From: Longimicrobiales bacterium
Lineage (GTDB): Bacteria > Gemmatimonadota > Gemmatimonadetes > Longimicrobiales > Gaopeijiaceae
Reading direction: 5' to 3'
Length of the DNA stretch: 64,000 bases
NCBI GenBank assembly: GCA_028823235.1
Contig: JAPKBW010000004.1
Span: forward strand, 62,001 to 126,000
Shown here: one piece after another, positions 11,324 through 22,532 of the stretch
Layout of the letters: each line of letters begins with the position of its first letter
How positions within the stretch are numbered: position 1 is the stretch's first letter
The notes under the pieces: generated by a model
What the model was told of the DNA's origin: nothing
Database searches by the model: none
What the model saw: the letters and a program-made list of their open reading frames with translations, nothing else
Translations under genes and position numbers: made by a program

Positions 11324-11480
11324 GATCGACGATGGATCCTGATCGGTTGAGCGCCTCGGTTGCTGCCACGCAGGTTCAACACGATTGTATCAGCTTGGCG
11401 GCTTCCGGACTCCGGGGATGCTCCCCGCAGCGGATTAATAGGCCGAACACGATGGACCTTATCAAGGGAGCAGAAGCACG

Positions 11481-13562: not shown

Positions 13563-14810
13563 ATGGCTACGCTATTGCTCATAGTCGGGGTCGCACTCGC
13601 GATCTCGTTCCTCTGCTCGATTCTCGAAGCAGTGTTCCTCTCCATCTCCCATTCCTACGTCGCGATCTTGAAGAATCGCGGTGAGTGGTCGGGGGAATGG
13701 CTGGAACAGGCGCGCAAGAATGTCGACGAGCCAATCGCGGCGATCCTGACTTTGAACACGATCGCGCACACCGTGGGTGCGACGATGGCGGGCGCGCAGG
13801 CAGCGGTGGTATTCGGGGAAGCGAAAGTGGGCATCTTCTCGGGTGTCCTCACACTGGCGGTCCTGCTCGCGACCGAGATCATCCCAAAGACCATCGGCGC
13901 AACGTACTGGAAGAGACTGGCGACACCATCCGCGTACGTGCTTCAAGGAATGGTCCTAGCGATGAAGCCGGTGCTGATCCCCCTTGGTTGGCTCTCGGGG
14001 CTGCTCACCGGACACGCGCACGGCCCCACCGTCAGTCGTGCCGAGATCCAGGTACTCGCAGAGATTGGTCGCCGGGAAGGCACCCTGGACGACGACGAGT
14101 TCTCGGTCGTGTCCAACGTGATCGGGCTAGACGAGGTGTCGGTCGGCGAAGTGATGACGCCTCGGACCGACATGATCGGAATCGCTGCGAGTGCCACGAT
14201 CGAGGACGCCCAGTCCATGATGCTCGACACCGGCCATCTGCGGCTGCCCGTGTTCGAGGAGAACCTCGACAACATCACCGGGGTGATCCTCGGCCGGGAT
14301 GTATGGCGGGCCCAGCGCGACGGCCGAGTGTCGCTGCAAGGCGTGATCCGGCCGGTGCCGTTCGCGCCGAGCTCCAAGCGCGTCGAACACCTGATCCCCG
14401 AAATGCGGGCACAACTCACCAAGCTGGCCATCGTGGTGGACGAATTCGGTGGAACGGCCGGGCTCGTCACCCTCGAAGATCTGATCGAGGAGATAATCGG
14501 CGAAATACAGGACGAGCACGAAGGTGATGAACCATCCGCCTTCCAGGAATTGCCGGGAGGCCGTGTCCGGGTGTGGGGGGGGACGTCTCTCCGAGAAAGC
14601 TCTCAGCGACTCAATTTTGAGCCGACCGAGGATGAAGAAGATGGGTTCGAGACGATCGGCGGCCTAGTATTCGGTCGCCTCAACAGGATTCCCGTGGTTG
14701 GCGACGAAGTCCTGCTCGACTCAGGTACGCTCCTAGTCACCCAAATGAGTGGCCGCCGGATCGAGTATCTGCTGTTTCAGGCAGTGGGCGCGGAGTCTGG
14801 GTCAGACTGA
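13563..14810 (+). CDS. CNNM/CorC-type (HlyC-family) membrane protein with CBS pair
   Basis: A 415-residue inner-membrane protein of the CNNM/hemolysin-C family, whose members are linked to magnesium or cobalt efflux. The N-terminal DUF21 domain (about residues 1-150) has several hydrophobic helices. A CBS-domain pair lies around 190-320 with the hallmark VMTPRTDM, and a CorC_HlyC domain around 330-410. The old hemolysin name is misleading for such proteins. Its stop overlaps the convergent lspA stop region by nine bases. Confidence 0.87.
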   Translation: MATLLLIVGVALAISFLCSILEAVFLSISHSYVAILKNRGEWSGEWLEQARKNVDEPIAAILTLNTIAHTVGATMAGAQAAVVFGEAKVGIFSGVLTLAVLLATEIIPKTIGATYWKRLATPSAYVLQGMVLAMKPVLIPLGWLSGLLTGHAHGPTVSRAEIQVLAEIGRREGTLDDDEFSVVSNVIGLDEVSVGEVMTPRTDMIGIAASATIEDAQSMMLDTGHLRLPVFEENLDNITGVILGRDVWRAQRDGRVSLQGVIRPVPFAPSSKRVEHLIPEMRAQLTKLAIVVDEFGGTAGLVTLEDLIEEIIGEIQDEHEGDEPSAFQELPGGRVRVWGGTSLRESSQRLNFEPTEDEEDGFETIGGLVFGRLNRIPVVGDEVLLDSGTLLVTQMSGRRIEYLLFQAVGAESGSD

Positions 14811-15362
14811 GCCGGTGGGCTCTCGGCCGACACCACCGGGGGCTGAAGCGTCACCCTCTGCAGTCTTCTCAGCGGCCTCGCGGGCTCGCTCTTCCTGCTC
14901 CTCGAACCAGAACGAGATCGCAAGCAGAATTGCTCCGCACGTGATCGCCATGTCAGCGACGTTGAAGATCGGAAAATCCCACAGCCAGAGATCGACCGGG
15001 CCAAGGAAGTCCACGACCCCTTCGCTCCACCTCATGCGGTCATAGAGGTTCCCGACCGCGCCTGACACGACAAGAGAAATCGATCCGATTCTCAGGTAGT
15101 CACGGTCCTCCGCCTGGCGGAACAGCACGGTCAACAAGCCAAGCGCGATGATCGTGACCGGAATGAAGAACCAGCGCGAGTCCTCGCCCACCCGTATGCC
15201 GAAAGCAGCGCCCTTGTTGAAGGCGAGAGTCAGCGGGAGCAGTCCTCCGAAGAGCTCACTGCTCTCGAACTCCAGTGCAACCAGCGCCCAACTTTTCGTC
15301 ATGACATCGAGTGCAATGATAGCCGGGAAAGTGAGACCGAAAATGAGATATTTAGGACGCAC
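14802..15362 (-). CDS. lspA: Signal peptidase II (lipoprotein signal peptidase)
   Basis: The inner-membrane aspartyl protease that cleaves lipoprotein signal peptides before the lipidated Cys. The 186 residues include four hydrophobic segments and the family motifs: FNKGAAFGI, GNLYDRM followed by VVDFL (first catalytic Asp) and FNVADMAI (second catalytic Asp). The highly charged Glu/Arg tail is a little longer than usual. It starts with GTG at 15362. Lipoproteins in this window (10127-11323 and 51903-53879) would be substrates. Confidence 0.93.
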   Translation of the reverse strand: MRPKYLIFGLTFPAIIALDVMTKSWALVALEFESSELFGGLLPLTLAFNKGAAFGIRVGEDSRWFFIPVTIIALGLLTVLFRQAEDRDYLRIGSISLVVSGAVGNLYDRMRWSEGVVDFLGPVDLWLWDFPIFNVADMAITCGAILLAISFWFEEQEERAREAAEKTAEGDASAPGGVGREPTGSV

Positions 15363-15510
15363 GGAGTTCGTTCCTGAGCAAGCGGAGAGTCGAGCGAAAT
15401 CTGGGACCCGAAGGCGCGATCCCCAACGTCTCCAGAACCGTTAAAGTAAAAGGCACTTACGCCGTCTGGACTCGATCGTTCCCCCGAATCGCGCAGGCTA
15501 CATGACAGGG

Positions 15511-15585
15511 TTATGCCCAGCTGCTTTTCAGGCTCCAGTCTTTGGCCGGAGGGCGGTGAAAAGTGCAGACTAAAAGGAGTTAGTT
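15511..15585 (+). other. Degenerate attC/attI-like end upstream of the serine hydrolase
   Basis: An imperfect hairpin (CTGCTTTTCA at 15521-15530 with TGAAAA-GTGCAG at 15557-15568) is followed by GTTAGTT at 15579-15585. The GTGCAG...GTTAG ending resembles the right ends of the two clear attC-like sites downstream. GTTAGTT differs at one base from GTTAGGT, the R' box expected to complement the R'' box ACCTAAC of the next site. No matching left CTAAC box is present, so this is a weak call. Confidence 0.3.
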
Positions 15586-15644
15586 GGCCCGACTCGATGG
15601 TTGTTGTCAAACGCCCGTGCTCTTCTTGCCTTGGGGAAATCCAG

Positions 15645-17054
15645 ATGAGAGTAATCCTAGCAACCGTCCTCGCAGCCCTCGCTGCGTCACCGGTTCATGC
15701 GTTCCAGCTCGACCGGGAGACTGAGTCTCGCATTGACGCTGTGTTTGCTGAGTATGACCGGACGACGGGACCGGGGTGTGCGCTGGGGATCGTGAGCGAC
15801 GGCCGCCTCGTGTTCGACCGAGGCTACGGCATCGGCCATCTGGACCACTCCATACCGCTTCGAAGCTCATCTGTCTTCTACCTAGCGTCGGTCTCGAAGC
15901 AGTTCACGGCTGCTTCTGTGTTGATCGCCGCTCACGAGGGATTCCTCTCACTGGATGACGAGGTAGGGAAGCATCTACCAGAGTTTCAGGACTACGGCAC
16001 GCCGGTCACCGTTCGAAACTTGGTCCACCACACCAGCGGGGTCCGCGACTACCTCACATTGATGAGCCTCGCAGGTATCCCGTTCGAGAATATTCTTTCC
16101 GACGAGGACATGCTCGGCCTGATCGTTCGGCAGACGGAACTCAACTTCGACCCCGGAGCCGAGTATCTCTACAGCAACTCCGGATACGTCATGTTGGCCG
16201 AGATCGTGAAACGAGCCACGGGTCGGTCTCTGCGGGAGTACGCCGATGAGAAGATCTTCCGGCCACTGGGCATGATGGACACGCACTTTCACGATGACCG
16301 TGTGCACGTAGTGACCGACAGGGTCTTGAGCTATGACGAGCGGGATGAAGGGGGATGGGCCACCAACTATCTCATGAACTTCGACAAGGTTGGGGATGGA
16401 GGCCTCTACTCAACGATCGAAGATCTGGCTCGGTGGGACTCCGCGTTCTATGAGGACGTCTTCGGCATCGCAGACTTTGCCGACAAGATGTACAGGAGAG
16501 GTGTCCTCGTCGGAGGTGACACTATCAACTACGCACGTGGGCTTGGGGTTGGCGTTCGGCGCGGCCTTCCGCGAGTGGCCCACGGTGGCGGCATGATGGC
16601 ATTCCGGACCATGCTCGCGAGATATCCGGTTCAGCGAACCACAGTGATCACCCTATGTAACCAGGGTTCCGCTAACTCGGGGGCGCTGAGCGCTGCGGTT
16701 GAGGACATTGTCCTCGAGGCGGCCTTCCTCGAGGACTCTCCACCAATACAGACCGAATCCGGTGCGGAGGAAGGGGGGGCTGACCACCTCATCGTGCCGC
16801 AGGCGGTTCTCGAGACCCTGGCGGGGGCATACGCTTCGGAGGAACTGGGCTCCACCTGGGTACTTGAAGCCAGTTTAGGCGAGCTGATCCTGAAACATCC
16901 GGGTGCAGATTCTCTCAACTTGACCGCGGACAGTGAGACCGAGTTTTCCAGTTCTGGACTTGTCTTGAGCTTCGTGCGCGAGGGTGATCGGGCCGTGGCC
17001 TTTGTTCTCCAAGCGGGCCGCGTGCAAAACTTGCGTTTCGACAGGGTGCGTTAG
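15645..17054 (+). CDS. Secreted serine hydrolase, class C beta-lactamase/PBP fold
   Basis: A 469-residue exported protein with a signal peptide ending near VHAFQ. It belongs to the beta-lactamase class C/D-alanyl-D-alanine carboxypeptidase-like superfamily: catalytic SVSK at about residues 82-85, YSN at 176-178, and an HGGGM segment in place of the third KTG motif. Members hydrolyse peptides, esters or amides, so antibiotic resistance should not be assumed. The last ~90 residues form a small extra domain. The ATG at 15645 gives a clean signal peptide. An attC-like site begins 31 bases after its stop, so it may itself be an old cassette. Confidence 0.85.
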   Translation: MRVILATVLAALAASPVHAFQLDRETESRIDAVFAEYDRTTGPGCALGIVSDGRLVFDRGYGIGHLDHSIPLRSSSVFYLASVSKQFTAASVLIAAHEGFLSLDDEVGKHLPEFQDYGTPVTVRNLVHHTSGVRDYLTLMSLAGIPFENILSDEDMLGLIVRQTELNFDPGAEYLYSNSGYVMLAEIVKRATGRSLREYADEKIFRPLGMMDTHFHDDRVHVVTDRVLSYDERDEGGWATNYLMNFDKVGDGGLYSTIEDLARWDSAFYEDVFGIADFADKMYRRGVLVGGDTINYARGLGVGVRRGLPRVAHGGGMMAFRTMLARYPVQRTTVITLCNQGSANSGALSAAVEDIVLEAAFLEDSPPIQTESGAEEGGADHLIVPQAVLETLAGAYASEELGSTWVLEASLGELILKHPGADSLNLTADSETEFSSSGLVLSFVREGDRAVAFVLQAGRVQNLRFDRVR

Positions 17055-17084
17055 CTGACCATCTCGTGTCGGAGGCCTCGAGCC

Positions 17085-17192
17085 ACCTAACAAGCCATTG
17101 CTACTGGCACGGGCTCGCTGGACGGGTAAGTCAGGTCACTGTTGTGGTTTGTCACGAGGCCGCCCGTGCAGCAGAATGACGAGACGTTAGGA
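17085..17192 (+). repeat. attC-like recombination site 1
   Basis: A 108-base imperfect palindrome. The left box R'' is ACCTAAC (17085-17091) and the right box R' is GTTAGGA (17186-17192). The inner arms 17107-17114 (GCACGGGC) and 17162-17169 (GCCCGTGC) pair perfectly. The flanking CATTGCTACTG and CAGCAGAATG pair with an extrahelical base and a mismatch, as in integron attC sites folded as single strands. Its ends are nearly identical to the site at 17957-18072 while the middles differ. Confidence 0.72.
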
Positions 17193-17234
17193 AGCCTCTT
17201 TCTGGGATTTAGACCTATCCGCTGTCGAATCGGC

Positions 17235-17933
17235 ATGAGATCTGGATTGACCGTCGCGTGCGCGGGCGTGGCCTGCTTGCTAAATCCCCCTCCGGCGGCG
17301 GGGCAAGCGGAGGACTGGGGCTCTCTGGATCGGTACCGCGAGGCTAACGAGCGCCTCGGTCCACCCTCACCGGCTGAAGCCAGAGTGGTGTTCTACGGTA
17401 ATTCCATCACCGAAGCGTGGGCTGTCCATTTCGAAGAGATGTTCCCGGGCAAGCCATACGTGGGGCGAGGCATCAGCGGGCAGACCACGCCGCAAATGCT
17501 GGTGCGTTTTCGCCAAGACGTGATCGCGTTGGAGCCCTCGGTTGTGGTGATCCTCGCGGGGACGAACGATATCGCGGGCAACACGGGTCCATCGACTCAG
17601 GCCATGATCCAGGACAACCTCGCCTCGATGGTAGAGTTGGCCCAGGCGAATGGGATCAGCGTCATACTGTCGTCGGTGCTGCCGGCGTCGGAGTACCGTT
17701 GGCGACCGGGTCTCGAGCCGGGCCCCAAGATCGTCGCCCTCAACGCTTGGATACGAGACTACGCTGACGCGCATCGTGTCGTGTACCTCGACTACCACAC
17801 CGCGATGGCGGACGAAGATCTGGGCCTCGGACAGGAGTTGTCGCCGGACGGTGTGCATCCCAACCGGTCGGGCTACCGATTAATGGCGCCGCTTGCCGAG
17901 GCCGCGATCGAGAAGGCACTACGCGAGAGATGA
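17235..17933 (+). CDS. Secreted SGNH/GDSL-family esterase or lipase, probable cassette gene
   Basis: A 232-residue exported hydrolase. The signal peptide ends near AAGQA. The SGNH blocks are clear: YGNSITEAW (block I, catalytic Ser), GRGISGQT (block II Gly), AGTNDIAGN (block III Asn) and SPDGVHPNRSGY (block V Asp and His). The substrate is probably an acyl ester or an acetylated carbohydrate; this cannot be fixed from sequence. The ATG at 17235 is chosen because an earlier in-frame TTG at 17142 would lie inside the attC-like site. The gene sits alone between two attC-like sites, in the orientation and spacing of an integron cassette. Confidence 0.87.
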   Translation: MRSGLTVACAGVACLLNPPPAAGQAEDWGSLDRYREANERLGPPSPAEARVVFYGNSITEAWAVHFEEMFPGKPYVGRGISGQTTPQMLVRFRQDVIALEPSVVVILAGTNDIAGNTGPSTQAMIQDNLASMVELAQANGISVILSSVLPASEYRWRPGLEPGPKIVALNAWIRDYADAHRVVYLDYHTAMADEDLGLGQELSPDGVHPNRSGYRLMAPLAEAAIEKALRER

Positions 17934-17956
17934 TATGGAGGTCCGACCGCGCGGCT

Positions 17957-18072
17957 TCCTAACAAGCGATTGCTACTGACACGGGTCACCTGATGGGCAG
18001 CGGGCCACTCGCCTTCGGCTCGCGCCCCTTGTTCGCATGCGGTCCGTGCAGCAGACTCGCGAGACGTTAGGC
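17957..18072 (+). repeat. attC-like recombination site 2
   Basis: A 116-base imperfect palindrome. R'' is TCCTAAC (17957-17963) and R' is GTTAGGC (18066-18072), a perfect GTTRRRY core. The arms GATTGCTACTGACACGG and CCGTGCAGCAGACTC pair with extrahelical bases. R'' here is the exact complement of the R' of site 1 (GTTAGGA), as expected if 17187-18066 is an inserted cassette whose circular form restores a matched attC. Confidence 0.72.
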
Positions 18073-18188
18073 GGCGCCAAAGCGGGTCCCTGTCATGGAT
18101 CAGGAACCCCTTCCCCTTGACCGGGTTGACGCTGACGAAGGGCCTGTGGTATTACTTGCGGCTGCTATTTTCTCGACCGACCAGAATC

Positions 18189-20477
18189 ATGTCCCTCGCC
18201 GATTCTCCCCCTGTGCTCGTGAACACTAGCCCTCCCCACGGACCTTCTGACCCATCTCGCCCAGGGGGCTTGAGGCTGCGGACTCGGCCCAGCGTGCGGG
18301 CCGGAGGCGTGAATCGCGGGAGAGTGCGGCGTCTACTCCGAGCCTTTGCACCGGGTTTGTTGCTACTGGCGGTACTGGGTGGCGCGGCGAGCGCTCAGGA
18401 CGTACGGGTTACGGTGCGGGTTGAGAGCGAGGGCACGCCCGTCGAGGGAGCGCAGGTTTCGTCTGAGAGCCGCGGTGCGGTGACTGACGCGACCGGCGTG
18501 GCGGTTGTACGCCTCCCGGCGGGAGATCACCTGCTACGGGTGACGCGGATCGGGTACGCCGCGGCGGAGATCCCGCTGACGGTCTCGACCCTGGTGGACA
18601 CGACGGTCGTGGTAGAACTCGAGCAGGAGGCGATCGAGGGCGAGGAGATTCTCGTCCTCTCCACCCGTTCGGGGCGCCGGATTGAAGACGAGCCGCTCCG
18701 GGTCGAGGTCGTGTCACGCGAGGAGATCGAAGAGAAGCTCCTGATGACTCCGGGAGACATCGGCATGCTCCTCAACGAGACGGCCGGACTTCGCGTCCAG
18801 CCCACGGCGCCCTCCCTGGGCGGTGCGAGTGTGCGGATTCAGGGGCTGCGGGGAAGGTACACGCAGATTCTGTCCGACGGCCTGCCGCTCTATGGTGGCC
18901 AGACGGGCGCGCTCGGTCCGCTCCAGATCCCACCTATGGACCTGGGCCAGGTCGAGGTCATCAAGGGGGCAGCCTCGGCGCTCTATGGTGCGACTGCACT
19001 CGGGGGCGTCGTGAACCTCATTTCGCGGCGGCCGAAGAACGAACGTGAATTCCTGTTGAATCAGACGACACTGCGGGGGACGGATGCCGTTCTGTGGCTC
19101 GCTGGCGAGCCGACCGAACGATGGGGCTACACGCTTCTGGCGAGTGGACACCGCCAGGACTACGCGGACGTCGATGACGATGGGTGGGCAGACCTGCCAG
19201 CGTTTCGACGAGTCACGGCTCGGCCGAGGCTGTTCTGGAACGATGGGGACGGCAGTTCCGTGTTTGTGACCGTCGGGGGCATGATCGAGGACCGCGACGG
19301 CGGTACCGTCCCCGGAGGCACCACTCCAGCGGGGACCGAGTATGTGGAGGCGGTCGAGACGAAACGATTCGACGGGGGACTCGTCGGGACCTGGCTGCTC
19401 TCCGGCACGCGACGGGTCGCGGTACGCGGATCCGCCACGCTACAAGACCATGACCACACGTTTGGGCTGGCGCGGGAGCGAGATGTGCACTCGACCCAGT
19501 TCGGGGAAGTCGCTCTCTCTGGGCAGGACGGGGACCATCTGTGGGTGGTCGGCGCCGCGCTGACGCACGACGGCTACGACGCGGAGGACGTACCGGCGTT
19601 CGACTTCAACTACACCACCCCGGCGCTCTTCGCACAGGACGAGTACTCGCTAAGCCGGAGTGTCACTCTCTCGGCGAGTGCCCGCTTCGATCACCACAGC
19701 GAATACGGTGCGTTCGTCAATCCAAGGCTGTCGGCTCTGTTTCGGCCCGGCGCGTGGGTGATGCGTGCCTCCGTGGGTAGCGGATACTTCGCGCCATCCC
19801 CCTTCACCGAAGAGACGGAGGCCGTGGGGCTGGGTCGACTCAATCCGTTCAGTAGTCTGGAGGCGGAGCGTGCGGTGAGTGCGATGGCCGATATCGGGCG
19901 CGCCTGGGGTCCCTGGGAAGCGAACGCCACGCTATTCGGATCCAGGGTGGCCGACGCCCTTGTCGTGACTCCAGACGGAACCGGAAATGTGACGCTCTCG
20001 AATTCGTTGGAACCGGTGCGCACGTGGGGTACCGAGCTGTTGGCCCGTTACCACAACGGCCCGATCCACGCGACCGGAACACACGTATACACGAACTCGA
20101 CGGAGGGCGTCCCCGCGGGTGGAGGCAGGCGGGCGGTGCCGCTCACGCCGCGACACACGCTCGGGCTCGTCGGCGCATGGGAGTCCGAGGACAAGGGTCG
20201 CTTCGGAGTGGAAGTCTACTACACGGGTCTCCAATCACTCGACGAGAATCCCTACCGGAGTGAATCGGAGCCGTATTGGATTCTCGGCTTCCTGGTCGAA
20301 CGCCGCTTCGGCCCGGCCCGGCTATTCCTGAACTTTGAAAACATCCTCGACGCTCGACAGACGCTGCACGAGCCGCTGGTTCTTCCGTCTCAGAGTCTGG
20401 AGAGTGAGTGGGTCACCGACGTCTGGGCTCCGCTCGACGGTAGGACGCTCAATGGCGGGGTGCGCCTGATGTTCTGA
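18189..20477 (+). CDS. TonB-dependent outer-membrane receptor with N-terminal CarboxypepD_reg-like domain
   Basis: A receptor of about 760 residues for energy-dependent uptake across the outer membrane. After an unusually long Arg/Pro-rich N-terminus comes a hydrophobic signal ending near ASAQD. Then follow an Ig-like regulatory domain (TDATGVAVVRLPAG), a plug domain (VEVIKGAASALYGATALGGVVNL) and a 22-strand-type barrel. The substrate is unknown. The start is uncertain: ATG 18189 is used, but the frame is open to TTG 18117 and a GTG at 18309 gives a tidier signal peptide. It begins just after attC-like site 2, and no matching site follows it. Confidence 0.85.
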   Translation: MSLADSPPVLVNTSPPHGPSDPSRPGGLRLRTRPSVRAGGVNRGRVRRLLRAFAPGLLLLAVLGGAASAQDVRVTVRVESEGTPVEGAQVSSESRGAVTDATGVAVVRLPAGDHLLRVTRIGYAAAEIPLTVSTLVDTTVVVELEQEAIEGEEILVLSTRSGRRIEDEPLRVEVVSREEIEEKLLMTPGDIGMLLNETAGLRVQPTAPSLGGASVRIQGLRGRYTQILSDGLPLYGGQTGALGPLQIPPMDLGQVEVIKGAASALYGATALGGVVNLISRRPKNEREFLLNQTTLRGTDAVLWLAGEPTERWGYTLLASGHRQDYADVDDDGWADLPAFRRVTARPRLFWNDGDGSSVFVTVGGMIEDRDGGTVPGGTTPAGTEYVEAVETKRFDGGLVGTWLLSGTRRVAVRGSATLQDHDHTFGLARERDVHSTQFGEVALSGQDGDHLWVVGAALTHDGYDAEDVPAFDFNYTTPALFAQDEYSLSRSVTLSASARFDHHSEYGAFVNPRLSALFRPGAWVMRASVGSGYFAPSPFTEETEAVGLGRLNPFSSLEAERAVSAMADIGRAWGPWEANATLFGSRVADALVVTPDGTGNVTLSNSLEPVRTWGTELLARYHNGPIHATGTHVYTNSTEGVPAGGGRRAVPLTPRHTLGLVGAWESEDKGRFGVEVYYTGLQSLDENPYRSESEPYWILGFLVERRFGPARLFLNFENILDARQTLHEPLVLPSQSLESEWVTDVWAPLDGRTLNGGVRLMF

Positions 20478-20701
20478 CGGCGGCATGGAGTCCGTCTGGC
20501 ACACCGTCTGCTTCCCTCCCGTCCTATTCGAAAACTCCGACGAGCGTCAAAGCGAATGCGGACAGCAGGTTAGTCGGCCTGGATCCGCGGATCGTGGGTC
20601 CGGGTTCGTGCGTTTTGGAACGGGGCAGGGTGCAGACGTTTCTCTACGTGTTGGCGCTCCTCAGTCTGGCGAAAGCCGACGACCATTTACGCCAGTTCGG
20701 T

Positions 20702-20732
20702 GAACTTTCCCCCAAAAGTTCGCCAAAATGGC
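20702..20732. repeat. Two adjacent small palindromes
   Basis: GAACTTT (20702-20708) pairs with AAAGTTC (20715-20721). Immediately after, GCCA-AAA-TGGC (20722-20732) forms a second short hairpin, followed by AAAAATGGGGG. The pair could be a terminator for the TonB receptor or a protein-binding site; neither is proven. Confidence 0.35.
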
Positions 20733-20883
20733 AAAAATGGGGGTGCCATGATTCTGCTTTGCCATCAGATGGCGCGCATTTGCCGGCAGCCGAAGCCATC
20801 AGAGAAGGTCGCACTCGCGATGCAACTTGCTGATCTGTGGAAGCGAGCATGAGAGCAACCTGCACAGTTTGCCCAAATACGAA

Positions 20884-20914
20884 GCGGGCCAACACCATGA
20901 AGATGTTGACCCGC
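20884..20914 (-). terminator. Hairpin downstream of ssrA
   Basis: The arms 20884-20894 and 20904-20914 pair over 11 bases with one wobble and a 9-base loop. On the minus strand it starts 28 bases after the tmRNA 3' end and is followed by TTCGTATTTG, a modest T-rich run. A second small perfect stem lies between it and the tmRNA. Confidence 0.5.
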
Positions 20915-20941
20915 TCCTAGTTGCGAGGTTATCGCAACCAG

Positions 20942-21296
20942 TGGAGGCGGCGGGAGTCGAACCCGCGTCCGCCTTTGAATCCAGCAGAGCCGCTACGTGC
21001 GTAGACCACTATCGATCTCGCCGCGGTCGGTCAGTGGTCAACCGGGTCCGCAGCCAGCCACCTTAAATCTCGTTCCCTAACCCGGTGGCATGACCAGGGA
21101 ACCAGCCCGAATTATCGACGTCTCGGAGGACCGCCTCAGGCGGGCGATCCAGGAGACGGGCTACTAAGGAAGAACCTTAAGCGGCCATCGCCATATCAGT
21201 GTTGGCAATTAAAAGTTTTCCCAGGGTTTAACGAGGACCAAGAACCTCGGCACGCTGCTCCACGTTCACCAAACACGTCGAAACCGGGACGCCCCC
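20942..21296 (-). ncRNA. ssrA: tmRNA (transfer-messenger RNA)
   Basis: The RNA rescues stalled ribosomes and tags the nascent peptide for proteolysis. The 5' end (GGGGGCG, then a GGUUUCGAC core) pairs with the 3' CGCCUCC, including the G3-U pair needed for alanine charging. The T-arm has the standard GGGTTCGACTCCC. The 3' CCA is not encoded. The tag reading frame at 21206-21177 is GCC AAC ACT GAT ATG GCG ATG GCC GCT TAA, giving ANTDMAMAA after the charged alanine. It lies 104 bases downstream of dusB on the same strand. Confidence 0.95.
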
Positions 21297-21400: not shown

Positions 21401-22402
21401 CTACCCTGCCTGAGCCGTCGCCAGATGCTGCTCCCGGTACGCCTGAAGCAGCACCTCCACATCCTCGAGTGTGGTCGACTGGAAGAGTTCCGTCCGCAGT
21501 GTCCGCCCATCGGGAAGTCCCTTGGTATACCACCCAAGATGTTTGCGGAAGTCGATGATGGCCCGGTCGGGGTCTGTCTCGAACGAAATTGCGTTACGAG
21601 CATGCTCGAGGCAGATCTCGAAACGCTCGTCCACTCCCGGTTCAGGCGGCACGGGCAGGCCGTCAAGCGCAGCTCTGGCCTGCGTGAAGATCCACGGGTC
21701 ACCGTGTGAGCCTCGGGCGATCATGATCCCTGCGCACCCAGTCTCTTCGCGCATGCGCCGGGCGTCCTCTCCGGTTTTGATATCGCCGTTCCCGATGACC
21801 GGGACTTCCAAGGCTTCGACGAGATCCGCAATTTCATGCCAGCGTGCGTGCCCGGAGTACATGTCGGCCCGAGTCCGCGGGTGGATACACAGGGCCTTCG
21901 CGCCAGCTTGCTCGCACCGGAGGCCAATGGCTACCGGATCTCGAGTCGACTCGTTGAATCCGCTCCTGATCTTTACCGTCGTGGGCAGGTCGGTGGCATC
22001 GTCTACCGCGCGAATCAGGACATCGACCAGATCCAGATCGCGAAGGCACCCTGACCCACCGTTCCGCTTCACGACCTTCTTCACAGGGCATCCGAAATTG
22101 ATGTCGATGAAGTCTGGTCCGTAGCTCTCCGCCACAAATGCAGCCGCGTCTGCCATCATCCCTGCATCCGCCCCAAAAATCTGAATCCCGATCGGGCGTT
22201 CCGCTTCGTCGAAGCGGAGGTATTCACGAGATCTCTTGCTATTCATGACGATGCCGGCCGCGCTGACGAACTCGCTCACGAGCACGTCGGCCCCGAACCG
22301 CCGGCAAAGCCTGCGGAACGGGGATTCACTCACACCGGCCTGCGGAGCCAGGTAGAGGGGCACGGAGTCGCCAGCAAGCAACTCGAGAGCGTCAATGGAC
22401 AT
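21401..22402 (-). CDS. dusB: tRNA-dihydrouridine synthase
   Basis: An FMN-dependent enzyme that reduces uridines in the tRNA D-loop. The protein has about 333 residues and a TIM-barrel start (LYLAPQAGVSESPFRRLCRRFGA). The catalytic Cys is near residue 105 in INFGCPVKKV. The phosphate-binding CIHPRTR and GNGDIKT motifs are also present. The DusB subtype is the best fit but rests on general resemblance. The ATG at 22402 is chosen over a GTG five codons upstream. It is divergent from the ptsN-like gene and upstream of ssrA. Confidence 0.88.
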   Translation of the reverse strand: MSIDALELLAGDSVPLYLAPQAGVSESPFRRLCRRFGADVLVSEFVSAAGIVMNSKRSREYLRFDEAERPIGIQIFGADAGMMADAAAFVAESYGPDFIDINFGCPVKKVVKRNGGSGCLRDLDLVDVLIRAVDDATDLPTTVKIRSGFNESTRDPVAIGLRCEQAGAKALCIHPRTRADMYSGHARWHEIADLVEALEVPVIGNGDIKTGEDARRMREETGCAGIMIARGSHGDPWIFTQARAALDGLPVPPEPGVDERFEICLEHARNAISFETDPDRAIIDFRKHLGWYTKGLPDGRTLRTELFQSTTLEDVEVLLQAYREQHLATAQAG

Positions 22403-22532
22403 GTTAGAAGCTACCACAGCCCGGAATCCGAAGAAGGATTCCGGGGTACAGGGATGCTCCTCGGGGCCGTGTGTTGTATTGTCGCCCCGCTACATCTCTC
22501 ATGACCGATCGACAAACGCCGGGAGGCGGTAC

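Follow-up and report, generated by a model that had tools for sequence, protein, structure and literature searches.

How did a hydrolase gene flanked by two matched palindromic sites come to lie in the chromosomal interval between lspA and the tmRNA gene? The interval is contained within the 64 kb stretch of DNA analysed here, which we refer to as the window, and its features are listed in Table 1. We find that it almost certainly carries a CALIN, made up of one and probably two integron cassettes that lie outside any integron platform and were presumably mobilised by IntI/attC excision and integration. A CALIN is a cluster of attC sites lacking an integron-integrase, for which the default threshold of IntegronFinder 2 is two attC sites (Cury et al., PMC9024848); the window has two such sites with no intI nearby, and neither the intI nor the attI of a complete integron was found in the genome to which it belongs.

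Table 1. Features of the lspA–tmRNA interval and its flanks (window coordinates)
Feature	Position	Strand	Remarks
lspA, conserved left flank	14802..15362	(-)	Homology to congeners stops within 15362–15404
Candidate left core site GTTAGTT of first cassette	15579..15585	(+)	6/7 to expected GTTAGGT
Serine beta-lactamase-family protein	15645..17054	(+)	PF00144, E 6.7e-61; longer reading starts at 15513
attC site 1	17085..17192	(-)	Folding strand is bottom; congener-only model R2: 87.0 bits, E 5.7e-27
Gene cassette, 880 bp	17187..18066	(+)	Between G/TT points; site 1 R′ and site 2 R″ agree at 7/7
SGNH/GDSL hydrolase	17238..17933	(+)	PF13472, E 1.5e-30; N-terminus signal-peptide-like, by eye only
attC site 2 (attC of SGNH cassette)	17957..18072	(-)	R2: 88.9 bits, E 1.2e-27
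TonB-dependent receptor, right neighbour	18117..20477	(+)	Elsewhere in the two congeners possessing it
tmRNA (ssrA)	20941..21296	(-)	3′ end faces variable interval
tRNA-dihydrouridine synthase-like gene (dus), conserved right flank	21401..22417	(-)	Genus comparison

Direct reading of the sequence places the R″ and R′ boxes of site 1 at 17085–17091 (ACCTAAC) and 17186–17192 (GTTAGGA), and those of site 2 at 17957–17963 (TCCTAAC) and 18066–18072 (GTTAGGC). Both sites conform to the attC core RYYYAAC ... GTTRRRY, the last R′ base being an A in site 1. The bottom strand of each folds with R′ paired to R″, a spacer left unpaired, a long arm, and two single-base bulges that lie on the same arm. Two copies of the conserved site end are present in the window when up to three mismatches are allowed (0 expected), and 13 in the whole assembly, compared with no occurrence of a reversed control pattern. 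Because the fold energies of the two window sites taken singly are unremarkable (z of -1.67 and -0.88, not significant), the structural case for attC rests on the site family. Rfam has no attC family, and an Rfam scan of the window returned the tmRNA only. RNAalifold recovered only 9 pairs from a MAFFT alignment of the sites, since palindromes with variable middles align badly, and a hand-made structure and Infernal alignments were therefore used.

Two covariance models were built. The first (R1), from 12 sites of the window's own genome and a structure of 22 pairs, has 88 % of its cells paired, as against 29–49 % when the partners are slid, and in a scan of the genus it found 19 sites in the window's genome; of the 13 congeners, seven gave between 1 and 15 sites and six gave none. 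The second (R2) draws on 25 sites, all of them from congeners, the own-genome sites being left out to avoid circularity; 93 % of its cells are paired (23–56 % when slid) and it contains 61 double-change cells against 22.8 in shuffled data (0/500), values to be read in the light of an alignment fitted to the structure, which favours pairing. A scan of the 64 kb with R2 returned the two window sites and nothing else, each with an E-value of about 1e-27, these values being rough owing to short calibrations. From searches of the genome contigs, the family numbers about 20 sites in the window's assembly, most of which belong to a single array on contig C7 and share one strand there, and further members are present in the congeners; within arrays the sites lie on one strand with one cassette-sized segment between neighbours. 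The segments 17085–17192 and 17957–18072 are thus attC sites, and a function in recombination is predicted from their sequence.

A segment that had once been a circle joined at G/TT would be expected to carry a left end complementary to the R″ found at its right end. This is what is seen here: the R″ box of site 2 (TCCTAAC) complements GTTAGGA, the R′ box of site 1, letter for letter, whereas the R″ box of site 1 (ACCTAAC) does not. When the two most variable letters of each pair were scored over 47 adjoining site pairs from several genomes, 60 of the 94 letters matched, as against 32±4.5 in shuffled pairs (0/20000), and no excess of R′/R″ matches was present within single sites. Complete 7/7 matches are found in 11 of 13 neighbour pairs in the intI-bearing congener G004 and in only 1 of 14 in the C7 array (a hand count from the table of 47 pairs); since such matches are rare in C7 and the window pair is itself 7/7, the C7 array would seem to be old and the cassette of the window recent. 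The cassette has a single gene, which reads toward the attC site at 17957 and whose product matches the SGNH/GDSL family PF13472 over its full length and is here carried as a gene cassette. We conclude that 17187–18066 is an integron gene cassette carrying an SGNH/GDSL hydrolase. The first-pass annotation, made from the window alone, had described two palindromic attC-like sites with shared ends and extrahelical bases, a cassette with these bounds and an R′/R″ signature of circularization, and an exported hydrolase in the expected orientation; site positions and cassette bounds are exact, the bulges and the signature hold, the sites are recovered by our home-made congener model and the gene is real, export being judged by eye only.

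The same cassette unit occurs at a different locus in a sister species. On contig C59 of congener G011 the same SGNH gene (79 % amino acid identity) lies between attC sites (L218:10479-10579 and 11334-11443), 145 bp after a tRNA-Met gene, whereas the window cassette is on contig C4 of its genome. The DNA homology between G011 and the window spans 17157–17996, which is the whole cassette body from the R′ half of the first attC into the second. The lspA–tmRNA–dus interval of G011 contains neither the SGNH gene nor an attC site, and the hydrolase gene is absent from this interval in the congeners, so that a fixed gene with conserved flanks, the outcome that would have counted against the earlier proposal, was not what the relatives showed. 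There is thus good support for regarding the cassette as a mobile gene deposited by a gene-capture system of known type. The tRNA-Met platform is common to G011 (L218:10260-14905) and G010 (L204:1-726). In G010 a fragment of intI adjoins the tRNA-Met gene, and in G011 the array lacks intI, so that it resembles a platform from which the integrase has been lost. A platform of the G010 type was sought and not found at the trkA/tRNA-Met locus of the window's genome, which is present with no SGNH gene, attC site or intI in the stretch examined. The closest relative of the SGNH protein (82 % amino acid identity) is encoded in a Gemmatimonadota metagenome-assembled genome (JAPPOV010000042; L050), where decayed attC halves lie on both sides of the gene and the bases after the left junction are the same as in the window. 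It is from the nearest SGNH relatives that bear a name that the window's genome is assigned to Gemmatimonadota. The remaining homologues are at unrelated places, and proteins about 60 % identical are widespread in Bacteroidota. We note that contig JAJKIV010000333.1 (L056, L057) carries the same 7.1 kb in inverted orientation at both ends of its 44 kb, which is probably an assembly artefact.

The beta-lactamase-like gene lies just before attC site 1 and is correctly oriented with respect to it; this gene is probably the first cassette, with site 1 as its attC. Its best match in the 13 congeners has 45 % identity, none is at this locus, and none of the congener homologues is flanked by attC. The left core site remains a candidate, as about 0.4 matches of 6/7 are expected by chance in 280 bp. 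The initial picture of a single cassette thus holds for the SGNH cassette itself and probably falls one short in number.

Both cassettes lie in variable DNA. In the genus, lspA on the left and tmRNA–dus on the right are conserved and the DNA between them is different in every species with both flanks assembled; positions 15363–20940 of the window are thus a gene-content hot spot genus-wide, the cargo of which comprises here the beta-lactamase-like gene, the SGNH cassette and the TonB-dependent receptor gene. No precise empty site could be made out in the congeners, the flanks having diverged and the lspA-side homology stopping before any candidate core site, and no integrase gene was found within the interval. 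An island targeting the tmRNA gene was considered and ruled against, as the interval contains no directly repeated copy of the tmRNA 3′ end. In G003 and G005 (L173, L174) the lspA match contains an in-frame stop codon.

No IntI was found in the window's assembly, which is 97 % complete: the best match to TIGR02249 scores 82 bits against a cut-off of 265, and the two proteins that match Phage_integrase well resemble XerC and XerD. IntI proteins above this NCBI curated cut-off are encoded by congeners G004, G006 and G008, and a fragment by G010, giving three or four of 13 depending on how the fragment is counted; IntI genes with an attC site just downstream are seen among the congeners. The intI of G008 is oriented toward the first attC, and an intervening attI-like GTTAGAG matches the R″ of that attC at 7/7, and G004 has the same geometry with weak site scores. 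This arrangement is known from Treponema (PMC3607928) and is a feature of these congeners, not of the window's genome, in which no attI can be assigned as intI was not found. The C7 array contains about 16 attC sites on one strand over up to 47 kb (G000:C7:1-47045) and the contig starts inside it, the first site being at base 116, so that loss of the integrase is not separable from an assembly gap; platform flanks are not shared among G004, G006 and G008, and the piece preceding C7 could therefore not be placed. CALIN counts are known to be inflated by draft assemblies (PMC9024848). The array includes 24.7 kb without recognised sites (20992-45739), and those of its cargo genes that could be named encode mainly hydrolases (M42 and M20 peptidases, alpha/beta hydrolases, HAD and amidohydrolase proteins) together with a GNAT acetyltransferase. 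The first-pass description of a small cluster without an integrase, in a lineage where integrons are little described, thus needs revision: the lack of an integrase applies to this assembly, given that the gap before C7 could hide intI; a search of the genome yields some 20 sites, including the larger array on C7; and integrons of Gemmatimonadota are already on record (PMC8618304), with a large array in Gemmatirosa (PMC9024848).

Action of IntI on attC bottom strands at G/TT is the established mechanism for the integron family, and it is from the cassette anatomy that we infer it here. The SGNH gene would have been excised by IntI as a circle, through recombination at G/TT between the folded single-stranded bottom strands of its attC sites, and the circle, or a short run of cassettes, would later have been integrated in the lspA–tmRNA interval, presumably at a secondary (attG-like) site; the trace of this would be the agreement, at 7/7, of the cassette's left end with the R″ of the attC belonging to it. 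As imperfect palindromes of 100–120 bp with conserved ends, present several times per genome, the sites might instead be taken for some other interspersed repeat (REP, MITE-like or terminators). This reading is contradicted by the exchange of R′ and R″ between neighbours and not within sites, by one-strand arrays with a cassette-sized segment between sites, by congener IntI genes with a site just downstream and by the occurrence of the same gene between sites at different loci, and we consider it extremely improbable.

With mobilisation by IntI and attC retained as the preferred explanation, the way in which the cassettes reached this interval can be viewed in two ways. They may have been inserted one by one at an attG-like site through the trans action of an IntI, whether the cell's own (hidden before C7) or one formerly present, and to this we would give just short of an even chance. 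Cassette integration at attG is documented (Loot et al. 2024, as described in PMC12444791 and PMC12901181), C7 begins inside its array so that a platform could be missing there, and lone sites are also present on C12 and C24; against this, a nearly complete assembly yielded no integrase, the decayed look of the C7 array suggests that recombination has ceased, and the left target site is only a candidate. The second view, plausible at somewhat less than an even chance, is that both cassettes came together with the TonB-receptor gene in a more extensive segment, foreign or rearranged, that had become detached from an integron array elsewhere and lodged in the tmRNA-adjacent hot spot. The variability of the entire interval accords with this, as does the absence of the TonB and beta-lactamase-like genes from this place in the congeners; moreover, attC site 2 and the lone C12 site are 82–87 % identical to sites of G004, above their identity to sites of the C7 array (up to about 77 %). 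This likeness to G004 may nevertheless reflect shared ancestry of the site type, and the interval holds neither a repeat of the tmRNA 3′ end nor an integrase gene.

CALINs and the principle behind them are already known. The window resembles those described previously (PMC9024848) in its two attC sites, its cassette gene in the expected orientation and the lack of intI nearby, and differs in that the sites were called with home-made models rather than the published attC model. Similar small chromosomal clusters are found away from the ilvD platform in Xanthomonas, where the integrase has been lost in some lineages (PMC12444791); the present example is from a different phylum, and its locus is not common to the congeners. 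The C7 array is comparable to sedentary chromosomal integrons of the Vibrio and Xanthomonas type in its one-strand organization and lineage-specific attC sites, although no integrase was found in the assembly, the array is decayed and several of the cassette genes are fairly long hydrolases. What is added is one cassette caught at two chromosomal loci in two uncultured Gemmatimonadota congeners, a natural series of integrase-bearing and integrase-lacking sister species in which integron decay and cassette persistence outside arrays can be followed, and an attC family model with IntI sequences for a little-studied phylum. It is a rather doubtful, speculative extension that cassettes in this genus, of marine type, still spread off-platform (to the lspA–tmRNA interval and to the lone attC sites on C12 and C24) in an integrase-less species with a decaying main array, fed from outside the cell's own integron and with cargo biased to exported hydrolases.

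The attC-like site on C24 (L224:4366-4484) scores 50.5 bits with R2. The lone attC on C12 (L025:8972-9660, corresponding to G000:C12:39971-40659) is 87 % identical to site 2 of the window, and the gene before it encodes a product whose first 122 residues match a congener protein of 600–650 amino acids, the remainder being missing; this truncated product looks like the N-terminus of a GspE/PilB-type ATPase.
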